Origin: Herpetosiphonaceae bacterium
Lineage (GTDB): Bacteria > Chloroflexota > Chloroflexia > Chloroflexales > Kallotenuaceae
Length of the DNA stretch: 64,000 bases
NCBI GenBank assembly: GCA_013821605.1
Contig: JACDGP010000009.1
Coordinates: 1 to 64,000, forward strand
Direction of reading: 5' to 3'
A program made the position numbers and the translations under genes. This document shows positions 29,694 through 43,469 of this stretch, piece after piece; within the stretch, counting starts at the first letter, position 1, and each line of letters starts with the position of its first letter. Under the pieces are notes generated by a model. That model made no database searches. It was given only the letters and a program-made list of their open reading frames with translations, and was not told the origin of the DNA.

Positions 29694-31622
<1,929 letters not shown>

Positions 31623-31665
31623 GCCAAGGGTGTTTTAGCTCACGGTTATAATTCGTAACGAGAAG

Positions 31666-31749: not shown

Positions 31750-33150
31750 ATGAATTTGCAAGCACTAACAAGTCTCGTTGCCCAGGGTGAGTCTGATCAT
31801 TTAGAGCTCAAAAAGTCAACCGGGCAACGCTCCGATGCTACTAAAACAGTGTGCGCAATGCTCAACGGTTTGGGCGGATTTGTGCTATTTGGGGTAGCTG
31901 ATGATGGCATGATCCTGGGACAGCAAGTTGCAGCAGGCACACTCGATGATATATCTCATGAGATGTCCCTCATCGAGCCACCAGCATTTCCCGATATAGA
32001 ACTGGTCGTACTTGAAAACGGACGCTCGGTCATTGGGTTGCGCGTTCCAGGGGGCGGTGGCCCATACACATATCAAGGACGTCCTTACATGCGTATTGGC
32101 ACAACGACTCGTCCAATGCCACGAGAACGTTATGAACGCTTACTTCTAGAGCGCATGCATGCATCACAGCGCTGGGAAAATCAACCGGCACCTAACATTG
32201 CTATTGACGATTTAGATCACGTCGAGCTTGTCCGGACTATCGAGGAAGCTATTCGTCGAGGACGACTAGAAGATCCCGCTACGCGTGATCCTCGGGAGTT
32301 ACTGCTTGGATTGAATCTAATTCATGAGGAACACCTACTCAATGCAGCAGTTGTACTATTCGGCAAATCGGAGCGATTACTACCGAACTATCCTCAATGT
32401 ATTCTTCGTATGGCACGATTTCGGGGTCGTGATAAAACGGAGTTTATTGACAATCGTGTGGAGGTAGGTCACGCCTTCGATTTATTAGTGCGCGCCCAGC
32501 GCTTTTTTCGAGAGCACCTGCCAATAGCCGGTCGAATCGTCCCTAACTTGTTTGAACGTGTTGATGATCCGCTTTATCCACCCGCCGCTCTTCGCGAAGC
32601 ACTTGCCAATGCCCTATGTCACCGAGACTATAGTGTTGGTGGTGGGGCGATTAGTATTGGTATTTATGATGATCGCCTTGAAATCTCAAGCACCGGCACG
32701 CTCCCATTTGGTCTGACACCCGAGGATTTGGGACAGCCCCATCAATCACGTCCCTGGAATCCGCTTGTTGCTCATGTATTTCATCGCCGTGGGATTATCG
32801 AAAGCTGGGGCCGTGGTACGCTCAAAATAATCGAACTGACTGAACAGGCCGGTTTGGCACGTCCCGAGTTTGAAGTCAGCAGCGGTGAAATGCTGGTTCG
32901 CTTTCGACCAACGACATATGTTGCGCCTATGCGAATTAATCATGATCTGAGCTCATTACAACGTGAATTACTTGAGATTCTAGCAAGTACTCGCCTAGCG
33001 ACGTTGGCTGACATCCGTGCAGTACTGCAAGCGACGGCAGCAGATCGGACGATCCAAGAAAATCTCGGCCTCTTGCGGCATCTAGGTATGGTTGAGTCGA
33101 TAGGACGAGGTCGTGGGGCACGGTGGTTCCTCAAGGGAATAAAGCAGTAG
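31750..33150 (+). CDS. AlbA_2/Schlafen-like ATP-binding transcriptional regulator-type protein
   Basis: 466 aa. N-terminal AlbA_2 (Schlafen AlbA-2) domain: ESDHLELKKSTG, VCAMLNGLGGFVLFGVADDG, then YMRIGTTTRPM. The middle has a GHKL-like HATPase_c_4 part: REALANALCHRDYSVGGGAI, and IESWGRGTLKIIE. The C-terminus is a winged helix (LLEILASTRLATLADIRAVL). This layout is annotated as RecG-like/COG2865 proteins, common in mobile islands; Schlafen-type AlbA domains are linked to RNA cleavage and phage defence. It sits alone between the intact gyrB end and the second gyrB tail, as the cargo of a separate insertion. Confidence 0.85.
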   Translation: MNLQALTSLVAQGESDHLELKKSTGQRSDATKTVCAMLNGLGGFVLFGVADDGMILGQQVAAGTLDDISHEMSLIEPPAFPDIELVVLENGRSVIGLRVPGGGGPYTYQGRPYMRIGTTTRPMPRERYERLLLERMHASQRWENQPAPNIAIDDLDHVELVRTIEEAIRRGRLEDPATRDPRELLLGLNLIHEEHLLNAAVVLFGKSERLLPNYPQCILRMARFRGRDKTEFIDNRVEVGHAFDLLVRAQRFFREHLPIAGRIVPNLFERVDDPLYPPAALREALANALCHRDYSVGGGAISIGIYDDRLEISSTGTLPFGLTPEDLGQPHQSRPWNPLVAHVFHRRGIIESWGRGTLKIIELTEQAGLARPEFEVSSGEMLVRFRPTTYVAPMRINHDLSSLQRELLEILASTRLATLADIRAVLQATAADRTIQENLGLLRHLGMVESIGRGRGARWFLKGIKQ

Positions 33151-33167: not shown

Positions 33168-33208
33168 CGCGCTATTCCGCGCTATTCCGCGCTATTCCGC
33201 GCTATTCC
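33168..33208 (+). repeat. 10-bp tandem repeat, four units
   Basis: The unit GCTATTCCGC is repeated in perfect tandem, about 4 copies, directly between the AlbA_2 gene and the second gyrB tail. It has no coding content and may mark a recombination junction. Confidence 0.9.
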
Positions 33209-33224
33209 TTTTGCATTTGCAGGC

Positions 33225-33341
33225 ATGAAAGACGCCCAACTCGCCGCCGAAACCTTCACCATGCTCATGGGTAATCTCGTGCCGCCGCGCAAGAAGTTCA
33301 TCCAGACCCACTCACTAGAGGTCGAGAACGTCTACGTGTAG
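33225..33341 (+). pseudogene. Second copy of the gyrB 3' end (fragment)
   Basis: 117 bp matching gyrB 31506-31622 codon for codon: 38 codons plus stop, in frame, with 15 base differences, eight of them in silent codon changes. The protein reads [16 protein letters not shown] and so on, with [16 protein letters not shown]. The rest of gyrB is missing. The excess of silent changes suggests it diverged while part of a functional gyrB, in this or another strain, before being displaced. Confidence 0.9.
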
Positions 33342-33360
33342 GCCAAGAGCGACGGTGGGC

Positions 33361-33738: not shown

Positions 33739-34008
33739 ATGGGCTTACATAAACTCGAACTGCCAGAAGATGTGTTGCGGCACGCAAAAATTCCCCGTCA
33801 ACAGTGGGACAATGTGCTCAAGCGTGAGTTAGCTCTCCAACTCTACCGCGAAGACATGTTGTCCTTCTCTCATGCTCGTCGCTTGGCTGACATGGAAAAG
33901 TTTGACTTCCACATGCTCCTCGGAGAACGTGGTATTCCGCGCCAATATAACGTCGAAGACTATGAGCAAGATGTAGCGAATATAGCTACCTGGCGATCAC
34001 AATCGTGA
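33739..34008 (+). CDS. UPF0175 family HTH protein (antitoxin-like), partner missing
   Basis: 89 aa. The family pattern is clear: ELALQLYREDMLSFSHARRL, ADMEKFDFHMLLGERGI, then a short acidic tail (YNVEDYEQDVANI). UPF0175 proteins are usually the antitoxin/HTH half of a pair with a downstream PIN-domain (DUF3368) toxin. Here the gene is followed at once (6 bp) by the third gyrB tail, so a toxin gene is absent. It was either lost when the next segment inserted or never present. Confidence 0.8.
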   Translation: MGLHKLELPEDVLRHAKIPRQQWDNVLKRELALQLYREDMLSFSHARRLADMEKFDFHMLLGERGIPRQYNVEDYEQDVANIATWRSQS

Positions 34009-34014
34009 TCGTAG

Positions 34015-34098
34015 GCTATGCTGATCGGCAATCTCGTGCCGCCGCGCAAGAAGTTCATTTAGACTCAGTCGGTGGATGTTAAGAACCTGGACTGGTAG
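34015..34098 (+). pseudogene. Third, decayed copy of the gyrB 3' end (fragment)
   Basis: 81 bp from the ATG at 34018 align to the last 27 codons of gyrB, with 14 base differences, a TAG where gyrB has CAG, and a decayed end. Several bases (AAT for Asp, CCG, TTC) are shared with the second copy but not the intact gene, so copies B and C are related to each other. It is shorter and more decayed than copy B, consistent with being the oldest. Confidence 0.82.
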
Positions 34099-34290
34099 AC
34101 CTTTAATTTACCGTAGTTTTTGTGCCATCATCCTAAATTTTGGGGCTATGCCGTATATCATTGATTAGACTTTAGCTTCACCACCCAACATATATTTATT
34201 GTGCCTAATTGGTTCATATCGTAACCGTGCACGAGGCACAAGACACGTTCCCTGAAGTTGCAGGCCATCCAACTCAGCTAAGAGGTTTCT

Positions 34291-36906
34291 GTGATCGAAG
34301 AAAATAATCCAATTCTTCAAATGTTTATTGACTCACGGCAGTTGCCCGATGATGTCCGGAAAAATCTGCTGGCTATGGGGGTCGCAGAAGCAGCGGTACA
34401 GCAGGCATACAACGAGTTTCGCCGGTTTACCGGGCGACGAAAGTGGCTAACCCCGCCACCAATGTTGGTTGGGAATCGCAACGAAGAAACCAACTGGTAC
34501 CCTGGCGCGGATAAAATTACTGGTGCTCGCTTCTGGCCGAAGCTTAAGGAGCATCTCCTCGACAAGAAGCGGTGGACTTTAGAGGCCATCGGCTCCATCG
34601 ATGATGCCTCTGACAAGATCGTTTCCTGGCTTGATTCACCATGGGCAGCAAATATTCAGACGCGTGGGCTTGTGGTTGGGTATGTACAGAGCGGCAAGAC
34701 GGCTAATTTCACCGCTGTTATTGCAAAAGCAGCGGACGCGGGGTACCGATTCTTTATTGTACTTTCCGGCACCAAAACAAATCTCCGCAGCCAAACACAA
34801 CAGCGCCTTGACCGAGAACTAGTCCAGCTTAACCGCGACCGTTGGCATGGACCACCCAACGACTCTGATTTCGACCTGACAGGCAACGTCGACTTTTACC
34901 TATCAGCAACTGAGAAGGACCACCGTGTACTATTCGTAGTGAAAAAGAATACGAAGGTCCTCCAGAAACTCATTAAGTGGCTCGGTGGAGCGTCACCGAA
35001 CTTACGTGACCGCTGTCCATTCTTGATTATTGATGACGAGGCGGATGAAGCGAGCGTGAATACTGCTCGCTACCAAGCGAATGCTACGCCGGAAACGACC
35101 GGCCGCACGGCTATCAATAAACATCTTATCAAGCTGCTCGCGTTACTGCCTAAGGCAGCTTACATCGGCTACACGGCGACGCCGTTTGCCAATGTTCTGA
35201 TCGATCCTCGCCCCGGCGACCTGTACCCACGCGATTTTATCGTCGCCTTACCAAAGCCTGCCGATCATTTCGCTACCGAGCAAATCTTTGGACGGGAGCG
35301 TTTAGTTGACGAGACTACCGACGAGGAATTCTTTGGCATCGATATGCTCCGTGACGTACCGACAGAGGAGGTGCCATTGTTGCGGCCCGTAGGCAAAGAT
35401 CCAGCCTTCATCCCCATGGTCACCCCGAGTCTGCAAGATGCCTTACACTACTTCTGGATGGCAACCGCCGGTCGTTTTGCTCGTGGGCAAAGTGACCAGC
35501 ACGCCACAATGCTGGTCCATACAACGCAAAGCGTACCTGTGCATGTTAATACGACTGACCAAATTCGTATGTATCGACAACGTATACTGGCTGAATTACA
35601 TGGATCACAACGCGTAGCGCTATTACAGACGTGGCAAATCCAGTGGGATGACGAGCAAGAAAAGGTCGACCCCACTGTATTCGGGCAGCAACCTATCCCT
35701 TTCACTGCTCTCCTTCCATACTTGGACACAGTCGTTGAACAAACAATCGAGGTAACAGACAATTCGCAGAGTCGTGCGCGACTCTCTTTTGATCAGCCGC
35801 CTAAGATTCAGATCGCCGTTGGCGGCAACACGCTCTCACGTGGCCTCACACTCGAAGGCCTTCTAGTAAGCTTCTTCGTTCGAGCAGCTGGAGCATACGA
35901 CACCTTGTTACAGATGGGACGCTGGTTCGGATATCGACGGGACTATGGCGACCTGCCACGCATGTGGATGACGTCAGAGCTCGAAGGCCAATTCCGGGAC
36001 CTAGCAACTATCGAAGCAGAGATTCGGCAGGACATCGCACGCTATGCCCAGCAGCGCATGACTCCAGCTGAGTTTGGTGTTCGTATCCGTACTCATCCTG
36101 CTCTCAGCGTCACAGCTGCCCTCAAGATGCAACACGCAGTGGCTGCCCATGTATCGTTTGGTGGCAAACACCATCAAACGACAATGTTTGAGCACAAGAA
36201 TAGCAAGTGGCTGCAAACTAATATTGGGGCGACGGAGCGCTTCATTGAGGCGCTCCTGGCAATGGGGTTGGTGCCGGAAGAGAAGAATGGACACACGGTC
36301 TTCTATAAAGTGCCGGCCAAGGAGGTAATTAAGTTTATTGGCGAGTATCAATTCCATCCGAACATGACGCCCTTACAATCAGGACCTCTACGAGCATATA
36401 TCCGTGCGCAACAAGTGCATGGCAAACTGTACGACTGGAACATAGTCATTCGCAGCTTACAACGCGAAAAGAAGCTTGGCACGATCAAATTAGGCGGCAT
36501 TACAGTTCCACTCGTCGAGCGTGCCCGGCGCAAGGAACCTAGTGATTATGCCCACATTGGCAGTTTGATGTCGAAGGGTGATGTTGCTTTGGACCTGCGC
36601 CGCTCCGACAAGGAGTTGCGGGGGAAGCAAACACCTGATCTGATTAACCTCCGTGCTCAGGATATGCCTGACATCGGGCTTTTAGTCATTTATCCCATCG
36701 CCCACGACTCTAAGCCGACCCAGAAGGCATCGATCGCTACACGGAGGCCGCTCGACGCTGTTGCCGACGTGATTGGCTTGGGTTTTGTGTTTCCCGAACC
36801 CGCTGGTCCATCGCGTGGTGAACAAGATTACGTAACGGTTGACCCAGCGAAACTTATTGGCACCGACGTTGAGTGGGATGAGGCTGACGAGGACGAAGCA
36901 CTATGA
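34291..36906 (+). CDS. Z1-domain P-loop ATPase (helicase-like) of a restriction-type system
   Basis: 871 aa from GTG 34291, AAGAGG five bases upstream. P-loop GYVQSGKTANF near 130-140, Walker B IIDDEADEAS with the acidic pair at 248-250, YIGYTATPFANVL, and a GGNTLSRGLTLEGL block near 510. This is the Z1 (PF10593) arrangement, a superfamily-II-like ATPase. Z1 proteins occur beside MORC/MutL-like ATPases, PD-(D/E)XK nucleases and C5 methyltransferases in predicted restriction systems, where they probably remodel or move along DNA. First gene of a five-gene run joined by ATGA/TAATG overlaps. Confidence 0.9.
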   Translation: MIEENNPILQMFIDSRQLPDDVRKNLLAMGVAEAAVQQAYNEFRRFTGRRKWLTPPPMLVGNRNEETNWYPGADKITGARFWPKLKEHLLDKKRWTLEAIGSIDDASDKIVSWLDSPWAANIQTRGLVVGYVQSGKTANFTAVIAKAADAGYRFFIVLSGTKTNLRSQTQQRLDRELVQLNRDRWHGPPNDSDFDLTGNVDFYLSATEKDHRVLFVVKKNTKVLQKLIKWLGGASPNLRDRCPFLIIDDEADEASVNTARYQANATPETTGRTAINKHLIKLLALLPKAAYIGYTATPFANVLIDPRPGDLYPRDFIVALPKPADHFATEQIFGRERLVDETTDEEFFGIDMLRDVPTEEVPLLRPVGKDPAFIPMVTPSLQDALHYFWMATAGRFARGQSDQHATMLVHTTQSVPVHVNTTDQIRMYRQRILAELHGSQRVALLQTWQIQWDDEQEKVDPTVFGQQPIPFTALLPYLDTVVEQTIEVTDNSQSRARLSFDQPPKIQIAVGGNTLSRGLTLEGLLVSFFVRAAGAYDTLLQMGRWFGYRRDYGDLPRMWMTSELEGQFRDLATIEAEIRQDIARYAQQRMTPAEFGVRIRTHPALSVTAALKMQHAVAAHVSFGGKHHQTTMFEHKNSKWLQTNIGATERFIEALLAMGLVPEEKNGHTVFYKVPAKEVIKFIGEYQFHPNMTPLQSGPLRAYIRAQQVHGKLYDWNIVIRSLQREKKLGTIKLGGITVPLVERARRKEPSDYAHIGSLMSKGDVALDLRRSDKELRGKQTPDLINLRAQDMPDIGLLVIYPIAHDSKPTQKASIATRRPLDAVADVIGLGFVFPEPAGPSRGEQDYVTVDPAKLIGTDVEWDEADEDEAL

Positions 36907-37919
36907 TTGCGCTCAATGTCATTCAGCGCATCTGGAGCCTTGTGGAGCAACCACAGCAAAGAGAAGGGCATATCGCTGCTCAGGAACTGCACGCCATCAC
37001 GACCCCAGCGGGGCATCCACTCCTCGTGATTGATGCGGACCAGCATCGGCATCTGCTTATTCCGATCAATCTGCGCGGTTTAGCGGAGGAGGACACCCAG
37101 AGCGCTGGAATTCACCTTCGTATTAACCGTTGGGGCGATGGCACGGCGCAACACGATTATGTAGACGTCGTGTGCCACAAGCCACACCTCAATGATCTCT
37201 TCGATCTCGTGATCTTTGAGATTGTACAGGCACTTGCAACGAGCACCACCCATCCAGCTGTAATCTGTCGGCGCGTCCTCAATCAATGGCGTGAATTGCT
37301 GGGCCGAGATAGCACGAAACTGCCCGACAAAACTCTCCTGCTCGGAGTCTTCGGAGAATTGTGGATACTCCGAGAGCTGACACGCTATAGCCCCAGTGCT
37401 GTGCAGACGTGGATGGGGCCGCAGGGTGGCCGTTACGACCTGTTTACTGGCACGCTTGGCATCGAAGTGAAGTCGTCGCTTCAGCGCCACGGGCGGACGG
37501 TGACAATTCATGGGCACGACCAGCTTGACCCACCCCCGACCGGTGCGCTGTACTTGGCTGCACTCCGCATGGAGGAGATGCCAGCAGGTGGTGAGTCCGT
37601 TGGGGAACTCGTTGATGCACTCGTCACACTTGGATGTGAGCGCTACGCACTATTTATGCGGTTAGCGCATGTTGGATTGACACCAGTTGTTCTGGCACAG
37701 CTACAAGACATTCGCTTCGCCGTCCGGGAACATCACGTCTATCACGTTGATGATGCGTTTCCCCATATAACCAAGGCAAGCTTCATTGGGAACAGCTTGC
37801 CCAACGGTGTTCTGTCCCTGACGTATCAAATCGATATCAGTAGTGCACCACCCTATCCGTTGTCAGCCGAAGCAGTGGCAACACTCTTCCAGCAATTTGT
37901 TCAGACTAGTAGCATATGA
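36903..37919 (+). CDS. PD-(D/E)XK motif nuclease (DUF4420-like)
   Basis: 338 aa; starts in an ATGA overlap with the Z1 gene. The catalytic core reads GVFGELWILREL, then D179 in GRYDLF, then E188-V-K190 in GIEVKSS, the D-x8-ExK layout of this nuclease fold. The DUF4420 family is annotated as PD-(D/E)XK motif proteins and is a steady neighbour of Z1 ATPases. It is presumably the DNA-cutting subunit of the module. The C-terminal half is unassigned beta-rich sequence. Confidence 0.88.
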   Translation: MIALNVIQRIWSLVEQPQQREGHIAAQELHAITTPAGHPLLVIDADQHRHLLIPINLRGLAEEDTQSAGIHLRINRWGDGTAQHDYVDVVCHKPHLNDLFDLVIFEIVQALATSTTHPAVICRRVLNQWRELLGRDSTKLPDKTLLLGVFGELWILRELTRYSPSAVQTWMGPQGGRYDLFTGTLGIEVKSSLQRHGRTVTIHGHDQLDPPPTGALYLAALRMEEMPAGGESVGELVDALVTLGCERYALFMRLAHVGLTPVVLAQLQDIRFAVREHHVYHVDDAFPHITKASFIGNSLPNGVLSLTYQIDISSAPPYPLSAEAVATLFQQFVQTSSI

Positions 37920-39997
37920 AGCTGTACCATGACGCTGAGCGCGTGAACCCAACCGGGAATATTGCCTCTGCCGGTATTCTCAATCAACTTGGTCGACCGC
38001 GTCTCGATACGCTTGCCGTGCTCGTCCGTGAAGCCGTACAAAACAGCTGGGATGCACGGCATGCAGCAGCTGGCTCTGTACGCTTCAGCATAAATGGCTC
38101 GACCCTTTCGCCGGGACAACGTGCGGTTCTCACTTCCTGCGTGTTTGCGGATTGTCCGCCAGCTGCGACCTTATCCCTTGCAGCATGTCTCCAATCGTCT
38201 CAGGAGGTGCAGGTACTCACAATTTCAGACCGTGGTACGACAGGCTTGACAGGTCCGACCCGTGCTGACATAGCAACCCCCGATGGCGAACCGCGCGACT
38301 TTGTTGATTTCTTGCGTGATGTGGGGCAGGTACATGACCGCCAATTCGCGGGCGGCACGTATGGGTATGGCAAGACGGCCTTTTACCGCACTAGTCAAGT
38401 GCGTACACTATGCGTCTACACACGCTGTCGTAGCAGTTTGGGCCTAGAAAGTCGCTTTATTGCGGTCGCTCTCGGTAACTCATACACCGCAAGCAATATC
38501 CGCTTTACTGGACGCCATTGGTGGGGCCGCCAGAGTAATATGTTGGCTGAGCCACTCCTCAACGGAGATGCTGATACTCTGGCTTCCCAGATCGGTCTGC
38601 CGGGCTTTAGGAACGACGAGTGTGGTACTACGATCATGGTGGTTCAGCCCCTGCTCACCGAGGTGATACGGCATGACTTATTGAGCCCCGCCCAGGCCGA
38701 CCAAGCCACGCGTACCTTACACCAAGCATGTCAGTACATTGCTGAGTGTCTACTGTGGTATTGCTGGCCCAAAATGCTCTCCTATGATACTAAGGCGCCG
38801 CCGATGCAGTTTGTGGTGGCCTGCCAGGGCGAACCGATACTCCTCCCTGATCCCCGGACATTTCCACCATTGCAGGGGTTTATGCAAGCGATGTCACACC
38901 TCAAGGGGCAGACAGGCCGAACAAGCCCTTTTCGACATACGATTGTTTCTATCGAGTCCCAGAGGCCCACGAAGTATCTAGGCAAGCTCACACTGCAGTT
39001 GTTTCCAACGAGTACCGAGCAACCGTTTGATACCGGCAGTGACGAGCTGCTGTTCCAGAGCCTCACTCATCATACAGCGGTAATGCGACAACCAGAGCTA
39101 GTCGTCAAGTATGTAGCCGGGCCGGCCTTGCCGAACGAGCAGCTAGGATACAGCGGTGTGTTCGTTACTGCTCCCGAAGTGGACGCAATCTTTGCTGGGG
39201 CGGAACCACCTACACATGATACATGGATACCACAAGCCTTGACGGAACGCTCACAACGGACGTACGTAAATGTGGCGTTACGCAACATTGAGCAGGAGAT
39301 GACGCGGTTCGCGCAGCCGGCAACTGTTATTGGCAAGCCTACTGATATCATCCCGCTTGGTGCTTTCGCCAACAGATTAGGCGACTCGTTGCTGCCGCTT
39401 ATTCCTGGTCCTACGGCACGTTCAGACGTCTCAAGCATCAGTCAAGGGCAGATCAATACTAAACTTAACGATCCACCAATAAGTACAGATGCGCAATTGG
39501 CAGGGGGGGAATCGTCCCTTGCCCTCCTGCCTTCCGATACTGCATGGTTAGCAGAACCGGGAGCAACTCCACAATACACTCCGTTGCCAAATACTCAACC
39601 TCCTGCATTTGATACGCCATTGAGCACCAATCGCCTTCCGTTAGTAGGGCGCGCTCATGTGCGGATGCTCTCTGAGGGAGAACTCATTCTTATCGATGGT
39701 GCTCCAGCCTTACGCATCACATTCATAGTGACACCCGGCTCAGGCACGATTGACACGCAGGTGCATATAGAGATTGCAGCAGTGTTAGATGGCAACCAAT
39801 GGGAAACTGAGCCCCCTATTGGAGGCAGTCGTGCTTACGTACTCCAGTGGATTGCACCAGAAGGCACTACCTACCCCGGCATGCCGAGCATCAATGTGCC
39901 AGCACACAGCAACGGCAATTGGCAGGTACACATCAGTGTTCCTGGCGATATGGTTCTGGCGGTTGAACTAAGGGCAACGGCTGGAATACAAGCATGA
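37916..39997 (+). CDS. GHKL (MORC/MutL-like) ATPase
   Basis: 693 aa; ATGA overlap with the nuclease gene. Residues 1-200 show the GHKL ATP site: N-box REAVQNSWDA (E39, N43), G1 box ISDRGTTG at 103-110, and G2 lid GGTYGYGKTAFY at 146-157. The middle (about 290-430) could be the S5-like transducer. After a low-complexity linker (about 500-560) there is a beta-rich C-terminal domain of Ig-like appearance (GSGTIDTQVHIEIAAVLDGN). In MORC-type restriction systems the ATPase probably clamps DNA and gates nuclease action; that is inference for this one. Confidence 0.85.
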   Translation: MKLYHDAERVNPTGNIASAGILNQLGRPRLDTLAVLVREAVQNSWDARHAAAGSVRFSINGSTLSPGQRAVLTSCVFADCPPAATLSLAACLQSSQEVQVLTISDRGTTGLTGPTRADIATPDGEPRDFVDFLRDVGQVHDRQFAGGTYGYGKTAFYRTSQVRTLCVYTRCRSSLGLESRFIAVALGNSYTASNIRFTGRHWWGRQSNMLAEPLLNGDADTLASQIGLPGFRNDECGTTIMVVQPLLTEVIRHDLLSPAQADQATRTLHQACQYIAECLLWYCWPKMLSYDTKAPPMQFVVACQGEPILLPDPRTFPPLQGFMQAMSHLKGQTGRTSPFRHTIVSIESQRPTKYLGKLTLQLFPTSTEQPFDTGSDELLFQSLTHHTAVMRQPELVVKYVAGPALPNEQLGYSGVFVTAPEVDAIFAGAEPPTHDTWIPQALTERSQRTYVNVALRNIEQEMTRFAQPATVIGKPTDIIPLGAFANRLGDSLLPLIPGPTARSDVSSISQGQINTKLNDPPISTDAQLAGGESSLALLPSDTAWLAEPGATPQYTPLPNTQPPAFDTPLSTNRLPLVGRAHVRMLSEGELILIDGAPALRITFIVTPGSGTIDTQVHIEIAAVLDGNQWETEPPIGGSRAYVLQWIAPEGTTYPGMPSINVPAHSNGNWQVHISVPGDMVLAVELRATAGIQA

Positions 39998-40890
39998 GCA
40001 TCATTCGACGACGGCCTTATGCCACACCCACGTCTGAACATGTCAAGATTGGTGCATGGAACATCATGAACGGCGACGACATGCACCAACTGCCAGCATT
40101 TTTGCCGGATTGGGACCCGGCCGTGGTTATTCATGCAAGCGTACCAGTGAGAGTCGACTATGCTGGGGTATTAGCCGATTGCCATCTCGGACCAGATGCC
40201 CGTCTACGTCTTGCCGCCATTTGGACTTCCCCGGGTACAGGCTTACGTGATCATGGGGACCTCATAGACCTTGATTCACAGAACATCAACGACCAATTTT
40301 ACGCCTCAGTACGTATCGATGGGACCTTGGTTTCACACGAGGTACAGCTGACGACACAACTTGTTTTGCTCAGTCCTGGTAAGTCGGCACACCCTTTGGC
40401 ACCCAAACTACCTGGAAGCATCGTTGTTGCACAAACCCAAACCCTTCAGCTTGAGGGCAAAGGTTCTCGTTTCCCTGTAGAGGTTATTGACTTTGCTTCC
40501 ACCTACTATCCTGACCGAGCTGCCTGGGTCCTTTACTGGGATGAAGAGGACCTGCACCAGACTGTTCTAGGGCACATGTGCCTGTACATCAATGCACGTC
40601 ATACGCGGGTAATGCGGGCAGTCTCGCAACTGCAATTAGAAGATGTCGGTATTCGTGAGGCGATTCGCTTGGATGTTGCCCGTACGCTACTGCTTGGTGC
40701 CCTCAATCATGACGAGTTCTTGCACAGACCGCAGGTATTTGCCGAAGGATCGGTTGGGGCAGCCATTTATGCGATGACGCAGCTGTATTTTCCAGGCACA
40801 TCTTTGACGCAACTCGGCTATGAGGCTGCGCATTCTAGCCTTTTTGAACCTAAACTCCAGGCGACTTTACAAGCGTTTTGGGACATCTAA
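39994..40890 (+). CDS. Uncharacterised component of the Z1/MORC module
   Basis: 298 aa; ATGA overlap with the GHKL gene and TAATG overlap with the next, so its level is tied to the complex. Seen: an N-terminal HVKIGAWNIMNGDD, many short beta-strand-like stretches in the first 170 residues (AVVIHASVPVRVDYAG, LRLAAIWTSPGTGLRDH, HEVQLTTQLVLL), then a helical C-terminus (VLGHMCLYINARHTRVMRAV). No catalytic motif. It resembles a beta-sandwich adaptor plus helical domain. I do not recognise the family; position implies a structural or target-recognition subunit. Confidence 0.8.
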   Translation: MSIIRRRPYATPTSEHVKIGAWNIMNGDDMHQLPAFLPDWDPAVVIHASVPVRVDYAGVLADCHLGPDARLRLAAIWTSPGTGLRDHGDLIDLDSQNINDQFYASVRIDGTLVSHEVQLTTQLVLLSPGKSAHPLAPKLPGSIVVAQTQTLQLEGKGSRFPVEVIDFASTYYPDRAAWVLYWDEEDLHQTVLGHMCLYINARHTRVMRAVSQLQLEDVGIREAIRLDVARTLLLGALNHDEFLHRPQVFAEGSVGAAIYAMTQLYFPGTSLTQLGYEAAHSSLFEPKLQATLQAFWDI

Positions 40891-41666
40891 TGTACCGCCT
40901 CTATCCCCGCCTGCCATTACCACTCGCAGCCGACCTTGCCATATCATATGCTGCCCGTCCTTTAGAAGAACTCCTAGCTGCAAGTGACTGCTTACATGCT
41001 GACGCTCAGTTCGCTCCCACCGGTGGGAATAGAGCTTCGAATCAAGATATGCTTACGCTACAGCATTTGGTGCGAACGTGTGCAAACCACCATGGGTATC
41101 CAAGCCCGCTTTCTGCAGACAAGGGACGTGCCTTTGACACGGCCTGTGGTATCACTTTGTTGGAACATATGTATCTTCATCCGTCCGAAGCATCCCACCT
41201 TGAGATGTGGGCGTTTATGACCTGTGTGCTAGTTCCCAACATCGTGCGTTGGCGCTTTATGGGCACTAGCACCACGATTGAGCGTTTCATTGGTAGCGAT
41301 CGAGGTTTGCGTCGCAACACCTTTGGTCGCCTCTGGTGGCGCACCTATTTATTACAGCAGCCACACTTAGAACACCCTTATCAACTATTCAATTTATTGA
41401 CGGAAGATGATTTAGTGCAAGTGACTGAGCGCACCGGTATTGCGGCCAGTTCCAATTTGGCCACTGCGTTTTGCACCGCATTCCTACGCGCAGCACAACA
41501 ACATGAAGCACTGTCCCGTCGGACGTTGTTGCGTGAAGCCATCAAGCGTCTGCAACGGCTCTTGGCGATGTTGTCGTTCACTGCTCTAGACAGAATCACC
41601 CTCGACCAAACACTCGATACGGTGTTTGCACAAACTGCACAGGCACTAATTGCCTCGACGGAATAA
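40890..41666 (+). CDS. DUF6339-like protein of the Z1/MORC module
   Basis: 258 aa from ATG 40890, overlapping the previous stop in TAATG. Mostly helical. The central RNTFGRLWWRTYLLQQP followed by LLTEDDLVQVTERTG fits what I recall of the DUF6339 family, which occurs with Z1, PD-(D/E)XK and C5-methyltransferase genes. The role is unknown. Last gene of the operon; it converges on the methyltransferase gene, with only a 20-codon open frame between. Confidence 0.65.
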   Translation: MYRLYPRLPLPLAADLAISYAARPLEELLAASDCLHADAQFAPTGGNRASNQDMLTLQHLVRTCANHHGYPSPLSADKGRAFDTACGITLLEHMYLHPSEASHLEMWAFMTCVLVPNIVRWRFMGTSTTIERFIGSDRGLRRNTFGRLWWRTYLLQQPHLEHPYQLFNLLTEDDLVQVTERTGIAASSNLATAFCTAFLRAAQQHEALSRRTLLREAIKRLQRLLAMLSFTALDRITLDQTLDTVFAQTAQALIASTE

Positions 41667-41671
41667 CAGTC

Positions 41672-41731
41672 ATGTTACTGGAAGCAGTTGAACTCTTACA
41701 GCAAGAGCTTGGAAGTGGTGATGTTACGTGA
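41672..41731 (+). other. 20-codon open frame after the DUF6339 gene
   Basis: ATG to TGA encoding an amphipathic 19-residue peptide (LLEAVELLQQELGSGDV). No RBS of note. It lies in the convergent gap between the operon and the methyltransferase. It may be the broken start of a lost gene or a chance frame. Confidence 0.25.
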
Positions 41732-41783
41732 CGTATTGCTGCTTCTACCGCATAAGCCACCACAGTGCGGTCCCCAATGGAAC

Positions 41784-43469
41784 CTACAGTAGTGGACCCA
41801 CGATAATGCGTCCATCTGTCAGTTCTGTTGAGTAACGCCCATCTGCGAATGATGCGAACATACTCGCTGTCCGCCCGACCCAAATATAGGGGGACCGCGT
41901 ACTGCTAACAGTAACCATCAATCCGTTATGCCGTTCGGCCGGCAACAGCGTCAGCACATTGTCAGCATACTCAATACGCAGCCAACGAGGCTGATTGAGC
42001 GCATTCCAAATGCCGCGTCCAAGGCGGAGTACAAGATACGTTCCTTTAGGTGCCGGTCGGCGCTCAACTCTCAGAAATGTACCTGGCCGACGACCAACCC
42101 TTCGTACAGCGGTTTTCGCCACCATTTCTTCATCACTTGTACCTGCCACCTCCAGACTGCTCGGCTCTGCTTCCAGAAGCCCAAATAGTGTTGGTTGATC
42201 GGTGCATAGAGGTTGTAGTTGGAACTCTGGCAAATCACAATGATCATGCCAAAATGCCGCAATAGACCAAGCAACGGCCGCAGCAAGGCGAGGTGGCACA
42301 GCATTCGCGAGTTGCTGCTGACGGTCGTCGCTGTAGCCCTCGAAGCGAAACCAGTCGGGAAAAGATTGGAGGCGGCATGCTTCACGGAACGACAATCCGC
42401 GGTGTTGGGTAGGATGGATAGTCATTGATTTTCGGTAGTGACTTACGGTGTGTGCCGGTCGACTACCGACGAGTCGCCGGTAAATGTTGCCATGCGTACG
42501 TTCAACATCCTTATATGTCGTAAGCATTTCCCGGATATTTTGCCAGTTGCCGCCTTCTGGGATATGCTTATACCGCTCAATGACCTCTGGTAAATGCTTG
42601 GTCGTGACGTGATCGAACAAAACGTCGTCCGTCATAAACTGGCGCAGCCACATAAGATAGGGTTCTTGACTTGGAACGTATTGGTGGCCTTCCCAACACT
42701 GCCCATTTTCGATTGGAGGAAGGTCTCCGATCGCCTCTGTCACACTAATCAGCGTGATATCTCGTCTCTCTTGTAAGTAACGGGACAAGCTTACCTCTAC
42801 CTCAGGTACGAGATCTTCCTGTATTCCAAAGAGGAAAAATCGCAAGCGGTGTTGCGGGACCTGAAAGCCAGCCGCATCAAGAATGTCATGCCACACGCGG
42901 TAGCCTAACTGTTTCGCTGCTCGACTTAAAAACTCGCGTACATCCGAAGGTGCTGCCTGCAAATCCGAGAACAAGCTGAGTTGCGACGTATCGACCTGCA
43001 TTGCCTCAGTGGGCGGCGTCCAGCGTACCCCCTGCACATTCTCGATCAAGAACATTTTGGGCTGAAAGGCTGCGATCTGGTTGAGAAAGGCGGTCACCAT
43101 GTTATTGAGTTCAACGCGCCGTTGGACACCCGACTTGCGGTTCGACGTTGAATAACCTTGGCAGGGCGGCCCTCCGATGAGCAAGTCTAGCACACCAGGT
43201 TCCAGATTTAGCAAACGCATGACGTCGTGGGCATTCAGTTGATCGACATTTTGCTTAAGGGTCTTTGGGACCTGCGGCAGAATGTGGGGAGCGTGCTCTG
43301 CGAGCCACCGCATATTCCTGTTATATGTTTTTAGGGCACTAGCATCTGTATCAACAGCAAAGAGTGGCTGGAATCGGATTTGAGGATGATCTGCTAGCAG
43401 AAAACCAAGTCCGAGGCCGCCTGCACCAGCAAAGAGTTCACCAGTTGTCAATGTTACTGTCGGCGGCAT
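41784..43469 (-). CDS. DNA (cytosine-5) methyltransferase with C-terminal extension
   Basis: 561 aa. Motif I ELFAGAGGLGLGF (11-23), motif IV GGPPCQGYS with catalytic C103, motif VI IENV (142-145), motif VIII QHRLRFFLFG, and motif X QQLANAVPP are in order. The target-recognition region is about 260-340. After motif X there are some 150 extra residues (RPGTFLRVERRPAPKGTYLV onward) that are not part of a standard C5 enzyme and look like a small beta domain. It marks the host sequence for the restriction module next door. The absence of a Vsr gene beside it is unusual for these systems. Confidence 0.93.
   Translation of the reverse strand: MPPTVTLTTGELFAGAGGLGLGFLLADHPQIRFQPLFAVDTDASALKTYNRNMRWLAEHAPHILPQVPKTLKQNVDQLNAHDVMRLLNLEPGVLDLLIGGPPCQGYSTSNRKSGVQRRVELNNMVTAFLNQIAAFQPKMFLIENVQGVRWTPPTEAMQVDTSQLSLFSDLQAAPSDVREFLSRAAKQLGYRVWHDILDAAGFQVPQHRLRFFLFGIQEDLVPEVEVSLSRYLQERRDITLISVTEAIGDLPPIENGQCWEGHQYVPSQEPYLMWLRQFMTDDVLFDHVTTKHLPEVIERYKHIPEGGNWQNIREMLTTYKDVERTHGNIYRRLVGSRPAHTVSHYRKSMTIHPTQHRGLSFREACRLQSFPDWFRFEGYSDDRQQQLANAVPPRLAAAVAWSIAAFWHDHCDLPEFQLQPLCTDQPTLFGLLEAEPSSLEVAGTSDEEMVAKTAVRRVGRRPGTFLRVERRPAPKGTYLVLRLGRGIWNALNQPRWLRIEYADNVLTLLPAERHNGLMVTVSSTRSPYIWVGRTASMFASFADGRYSTELTDGRIIVGPLL

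Follow-up and report, generated by a model that had tools for sequence, protein, structure and literature searches.

A five-gene Z1–nuclease–GHKL–P4–DUF6339 cassette facing an exchangeable C5 methyltransferase in a Herpetosiphonaceae bacterium: a candidate restriction system

Organization of the locus

The window analyzed here is a stretch of 64,000 nucleotides from a Herpetosiphonaceae bacterium of the Chloroflexota (assembly GCA_013821605.1, contig JACDGP010000009.1, positions 1 to 64,000). Five co-directional genes spanning 34291–41666 encode a Z1 ATPase, a DUF4420 nuclease, a GHKL ATPase, a protein named P4, and a DUF6339 protein, and they face a convergent gene for a C5 cytosine DNA methyltransferase (MTase; 43469–41784) (Table 1). 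In related loci, the five genes are inherited as a single unit, the MTase is repeatedly exchanged, and in one group of bacteria DUF6339 is fused to an MTase that has lost its catalytic cysteine.

The genes are joined by ATGA at three junctions and by TAATG at the P4/DUF6339 junction; hence, the overlapping five-gene operon opposite a C5 MTase, described in an earlier reading made from the letters alone (the sequence-only reading), stands when its open reading frames (ORFs) are checked. In the case of DUF6339, the ORF tool picks an upstream TTG at 40878, and the alignment of relatives favours the ATG at 40890. Pfam assigns the Z1, DUF4420, DUF6339, and DNA_methylase families, as the sequence-only reading had anticipated, with zero matches for the GHKL protein and for P4. 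The scan for promoters and terminators gives no excess over shuffled sequence.

Table 1. Genes and motifs of the cassette and the facing MTase in the window
Feature	Position	Strand	Length	Motifs and matches
Z1 SF2-type P-loop ATPase	34291–36906	+	871 aa, GTG start	Pfam Z1 2.8e-61; MzaC-like
Z1 protein motifs				Walker A GYVQSGKT; Walker B DDEAD; Z1 motif DTLLQMGRWFG
PD-(D/E)XK nuclease (DUF4420; Iyer's NRE; MzaD-like)	36903–37919	+	338 aa	Pfam DUF4420 1.1e-44
Nuclease active site E152-D179-E188-K190				invariant in 80/80 sequences
GHKL ATPase, assigned to the paraMORC2 family	37916–39997	+	693 aa	N, G1 and G2 boxes; E430-x-x-x-H434; partial PDC-M33A match
P4	39994–40890	+	298 aa	no Pfam, NCBIfam or PADLOC model; always next to GHKL and DUF6339
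DUF6339 protein	40890–41666	+	258 aa from ATG	Pfam PF19866 1.5e-14
C5 cytosine DNA MTase	41784–43469	-		catalytically intact motifs; Pfam DNA_methylase 3.2e-44

Recurrence and co-inheritance of the cassette

A contig scan with the GHKL alignment, covering one genome per species in 84,980 species, yields 319 confirmed relatives, and the best 80 were fetched; these represent the closest quarter of the 319, selected via GHKL and ranked by similarity. The order Z1-GHKL-P4-DUF6339 is kept on a single strand in all 83 GHKL-seeded loci. The DUF4420 nuclease is present in 79 of these 83, so that the complete five-gene order, whose recurrence the sequence-only reading had made the test of its proposal, is common outside the window, mostly with the 4-base overlaps retained at the junctions. 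Because this sampling depends on GHKL and on similarity rank, a reverse search was seeded with P4: its profile gives six matches in 397 Actinomycetota genomes, including the genome used as the centre, and GHKL and DUF6339 flank P4 in all six. Searching plasmids by tblastn, P4, GHKL, and DUF6339 each return one shared set of three records, with the genes adjacent in every record.

Pairwise-distance correlations among the five proteins range from 0.96 to 0.99. The five genes are thus inherited as a single unit, and their recurrence is far above chance. The gene overlaps had also been taken to indicate a complex of fixed proportions, which overlaps cannot show; the demonstrated part is the tight co-inheritance.

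Z1 ATPase and DUF4420 nuclease

The Walker and DTLLQMGRWFG motifs of the Z1 protein are nearly invariant across 84 sequences. In the nuclease, D179, E188, and K190 are in place as the sequence-only reading had claimed, and E152 is an additional residue of the same invariant set. The nearest NCBIfam and PADLOC families of the two proteins are MzaC and MzaD, far under the curated NCBIfam equivalog cut-offs (371.5 against 1500 bits and 85.2 against 420 bits, respectively). Membership of the Mza system is rejected on these scores, together with the lack of any AIPR match in Pfam among the six proteins.

The nuclease is the fastest-evolving of the five proteins, with a mean distance of 0.44 compared with 0.27 for Z1 in close pairs. 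A recognition domain within the nuclease was considered and rejected, since the divergence is evenly spread and contains no swapped block. Pfam finds neither a PLD nor a B3 domain in it. None of the Z1, GHKL, P4, and DUF6339 proteins has a significant match by sequence in the PDB.

The GHKL protein belongs with paraMORC2 rather than MORC

The N, G1, and G2 boxes recognized in the sequence-only reading are intact in the window protein (N box REAxQNSWDA) and invariant or nearly so in 84 sequences. Downstream of the GHKL domain, all 84 contain an ExxxH motif (E430/H434 in the window), the marker of paraMORC2 according to Iyer et al. 2008 (PMC2292703). The MORC-defining S5-domain motif GhXhhpXXRhl occurs in only 1/84 sequences and not in the window protein. 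Because the MORC motif is missing and the ExxxH motif is present, MORC proper is rejected and the protein is classified from its motifs as a paraMORC2 member. Accordingly, of the earlier description as a MORC-type restriction variant, the restriction-type operon of the Iyer kind is retained, and the label MORC gives way to paraMORC2.

P4 and DUF6339 proteins

The AlphaFold model of P4 comprises a β-sandwich and a helical C-terminal part (pLDDT 92.6, pTM 0.68), and its N-terminal sheet gives weak matches to Ig-like sandwiches and nothing stronger. DUF6339 is modelled as an all-helical protein (pLDDT 95.9, pTM 0.91), for which Foldseek finds no similar structure in the PDB or among viral models. 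By eye, neither protein displays a nuclease-like set of conserved residues.

In PADLOC, the GHKL protein (partially, PDC-M33A) and DUF6339 (PDC-M33C) are nearest to the candidate system PDC-M33, and P4 has no match to PDC-M33B. A direct hhalign comparison of P4 with M33B is collinear over the full length (P 0.011) at a probability of 1.7%, so that homology is not demonstrable, and the equivalence of P4 and M33B is suggestive only. In the collection of papers searched, none deals with DUF6339, PDC-M33, or Z1/GHKL phage defence.

Repeated exchange of the methyltransferase

The window MTase has intact GGPPCQGYST, ENV, and QHRLR motifs and a C-terminal extension of approximately 150 residues, and is closest (~40%) to the cassette MTases of betaproteobacteria. 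Of the 83 loci, 79 carry a C5 MTase no more than 5 kb from the cassette. Vsr accompanies 67 of the 83 related loci and is absent from the whole genome of the window, which extends the absence first seen beside the operon.

Grouped by sequence, and not by measured specificity, the 122 MTases form 13 clusters whose target-recognition regions are unrelated and differ throughout in length and sequence. On the cassette tree, built by a fast method and with some long branches, the active-MTase type changes at least 17 times, whereas 11 labels require no fewer than 10 changes. Sister cassettes such as L039/L070 (Lentzea/Amycolatopsis) and L019/L083 carry differing types, and three different ones are found among the window and the two relatives nearest to it. 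The five proteins show no matching change: after accounting for Z1 distance, a difference in MTase alters their identity by −0.005 to +0.002, the largest effect in any 20-residue bin is −0.05, and no swapped or hypervariable recognition-like block was found in any of the five.

A conventional restriction pair would be expected to alter its nuclease whenever the methylase is altered. The exchange of MTases without matching protein change means either that the MTases share a target or that the MTase gives the complex its specificity. In BREX, the MTase PglX supplies the specificity; that the MTase does so here is a possibility we hold tentatively. The alternative is ordinary restriction–modification, in which the five-gene complex would read a fixed short target that the differing MTases happen to protect. 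In the window and its relatives, an intact nuclease does stand alongside one intact C5 MTase, and a nearby Vsr fits a stable 5-methylcytosine site; however, the repeated exchange of MTases with wholly different target-recognition regions, and the lack of a candidate recognition domain among the five proteins, make this account unlikely.

A dead methyltransferase linked to DUF6339

In 32 loci, all from Streptomyces or Streptacidiphilus (including L021 and L035), DUF6339 runs on into a C5 MTase domain, which in the complete chromosome of L035 matches Pfam at 3e-37. In motif IV of the fused domain, GGPPCQ gives way to GGLPRVK or a similar sequence, and the catalytic cysteine is replaced by arginine in all 32. 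The same dead MTase gene, with PR for PC, occurs unfused in Nocardia (L060, L067, L081, L084, and L089). In Streptosporangiaceae (L030, L031, and L058), an unfused homologue retains PC and looks like the active ancestral state.

In the dead MTase, ENV is mostly retained, and the asparagine of motif X is often histidine. The target-recognition region is at least as conserved as the remainder (0.756 vs 0.704, within one partner type). A second, active MTase lies near every fused locus except L047, where the contig ends. An asymmetric target guarded by two active MTases was considered for these Streptomyces pairs and rejected, since one partner lacks the catalytic cysteine. Because the fused protein keeps the DNA-reading region and loses catalysis, the architecture suggests a role for DUF6339 in linking the ATPase core with a DNA reader.

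Core and apparently exchangeable parts

The strict core of the cassette is GHKL-P4-DUF6339, and the nuclease lies outside it. The nuclease, counted in the sequence-only reading among the five parts of the proposed complex, is not obligatory: it is missing in some cassettes, and the triad exists without Z1 and nuclease. L107 contains GHKL-P4-DUF6339 with an MTase and neither Z1 nor nuclease. The sister triad GHKL-M33B-DUF6339, which corresponds to the PADLOC candidate PDC-M33, is found with an upstream MTase in L091, L108, and L111; on lactococcal, Ligilactobacillus, Priestia, and Arthrobacter plasmids, it has no MTase of its own. In L092–L094 (Lactococcus, Priestia, and Ligilactobacillus plasmids), AbiG, AlwI, MutH/Sau3AI-type, and other defence genes lie near the sister triad.

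Five Z1 cassettes lack the nuclease, namely two near-identical rhizobial plasmids, L016, L025, and L109, and in the last three the Z1-GHKL-P4-DUF6339 genes adjoin DISARM genes. In L016, an ATGA overlap joins DUF6339 to the start of DrmA, and DrmB comes next. In L025, DrmA-DrmB-MTase is located upstream on the same strand; in L109, DrmB lies upstream and a DrmD-like gene downstream, also on the same strand. Among the 79 fetched loci, DrmA/DrmB occur near nuclease-bearing cassettes only in L018 and L033, on the opposite strand. From these small numbers, we read the output module, either the DUF4420 nuclease or DISARM DrmA/DrmB, as probably exchangeable.

An apparently exchangeable effector, and a related triad standing alone amid defence genes on the lactococcal, Ligilactobacillus, and Priestia plasmids, would also fit abortive infection, in which GHKL-P4-DUF6339 senses a phage event and unleashes the nuclease on host DNA, with the MTase only loosely linked. 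Such loose linkage agrees poorly with the MTase proximity described above and with the fused MTase homologues, and the GHKL–nuclease precedent VcSduA works without host killing (PMC12137116); we regard abortive infection as improbable. A DNA-repair or mismatch-linked (MutL-like) complex, suggested by the GHKL ATPase and the Vsr association, is highly improbable in view of the sporadic occurrence (6/397 Actinomycetota genomes; DUF6339 in 5/400 genomes of the window's phylum), the carriage on plasmids, and the DISARM and other defence neighbours.

Surroundings of the cassette

Upstream of the cassette there are three copies of the gyrB 3' end, at 31505–31628, 33224–33347, and 33981–34104, the copies being 88% and 64% identical. 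The copies bracket an AlbA_2/HATPase_c_4 gene (31750–33150) and a UPF0175 gene (33739–34008), and the third is situated immediately upstream of the Z1 operon. No extra gyrB 3' copies were found in 20 relatives. The arrangement has the look of successive insertions at the 3' end of gyrB. In addition, gyrB lies within 10 kb of the cassette or sister triad in the window and in L037, L074, and L091 (Paraburkholderia, Nocardioides, and Herbaspirillum), hinting at the gyrB region as a common insertion spot. A tandem 10-base unit like CGCTATTCCG occupies about 33168–33207, in the gap that separates the AlbA_2 gene from the second gyrB fragment. Meanwhile, in the relatives G034, G043, G078, G102, G309, and G330, gyrB is split inside a single long open frame (~800–1210 residues) and matches in two pieces, as by an intein.

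Proposed mechanism and significance

We consider it fairly probable that the cassette performs methylation-gated, ATP-dependent anti-phage restriction by one machine. The C5 MTase would mark the host sites, and unmarked foreign DNA would be engaged by the core, in which the paraMORC2 GHKL ATPase may close upon ATP binding into a dimeric clamp together with P4 and DUF6339. Z1 would act as an SF2 motor or switch assisting the clamp, and DUF4420 would cut the unmarked DNA once licensed by the clamp complex. The choice of target would most likely come via DUF6339 from an MTase (the dead one in Streptomyces and Nocardia), and not from a recognition domain of the nuclease; we hold this part of the model less firmly. 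The model, the most economical one, combines two precedents. In CglI/NgoAVII, a Z1 ATPase powers a distinct nuclease that cuts at specific sites but leaves methylated ones uncut (PMC4267653); in VcSduA, a GHKL ATPase is joined to a PD-(D/E)XK nuclease, and phage protection needs both active sites (PMC12137116).

In a more speculative form, which we rate as possible but doubtful, specificity would be plugged in: the GHKL-P4-DUF6339 core itself would read no sequence and would take its target from a C5 MTase docked on DUF6339, the dead MTase of Streptomyces (PC to PR in motif IV) would be a dedicated reader, and the DUF4420 or DrmA/DrmB output would be exchangeable as well.

Several points weigh against methylation-gated restriction with MTase-derived specificity. 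The window contains neither a dead MTase nor a fusion, having an unfused DUF6339 and one active MTase, and the coupling model is transferred from relatives. The sister triad on plasmids lacks an adjacent MTase, and its function may need no methylation mark. Furthermore, the MTase clusters could share a target by chance, which would remove the specificity argument.

GHKL (MORC-like) ATPases have been predicted in restriction since 2008, and the present cassette, with its 319 relatives, is widespread and includes two proteins without known function. The part that is new here is the at least 17 changes of MTase type without a matching change in the five proteins, together with the fusion of DUF6339 to a dead MTase; MzaC/MzaD-like proteins and the sister triad PDC-M33 are already in defence databases. 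A dead MTase serving as a sequence reader, if true, would be an unusual way of telling self from non-self; a GHKL core common to Z1–nuclease and DISARM partners would join defence families now listed apart.

Comparison with known systems

Compared with CglI/NgoAVII, the window shares a Z1-domain SF2 ATPase, a separate nuclease, and a C5 MTase; however, the nuclease there is a PLD enzyme with a B3 reader, and GHKL, P4, and DUF6339 are absent. VcSduA, a paraMORC3 Shedu protein, likewise couples a GHKL ATPase to a PD-(D/E)XK nuclease, but it is a single protein of another paraMORC family and has no MTase. DISARM is also an MTase-linked defence whose DrmA/DrmB adjoin nuclease-less relatives of the window cassette, whereas PADLOC, run on the six window proteins, finds no DrmA/DrmB match among them.

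Mza contains a related Z1 protein (MzaC) and DUF4420 nuclease (MzaD), but the window falls below its cut-offs, lacks AIPR, and has another GHKL partner in addition to P4, DUF6339, and the MTase. PDC-M33 possesses a related GHKL protein and DUF6339 in identical gene order and with similar protein lengths; however, it has no Z1 or nuclease, and the window P4 does not match its middle protein.

The closest correspondence is with the operons predicted by Iyer and colleagues, to which the sequence-only reading had rightly pointed. P4 and DUF6339 are not described as fixed partners in the available part of that text, and Vsr, which is frequent but not obligatory there, is missing from the window. 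The third, Z1/novel-nuclease type of that paper comprises a helicase with the motif DThhQXuRhFG, an E-D-ExK nuclease, and a cytosine MTase (PMC2292703), and the window matches this type with its Z1 motif, E-D-ExK nuclease, GHKL protein with ExxxH, and cytosine MTase.

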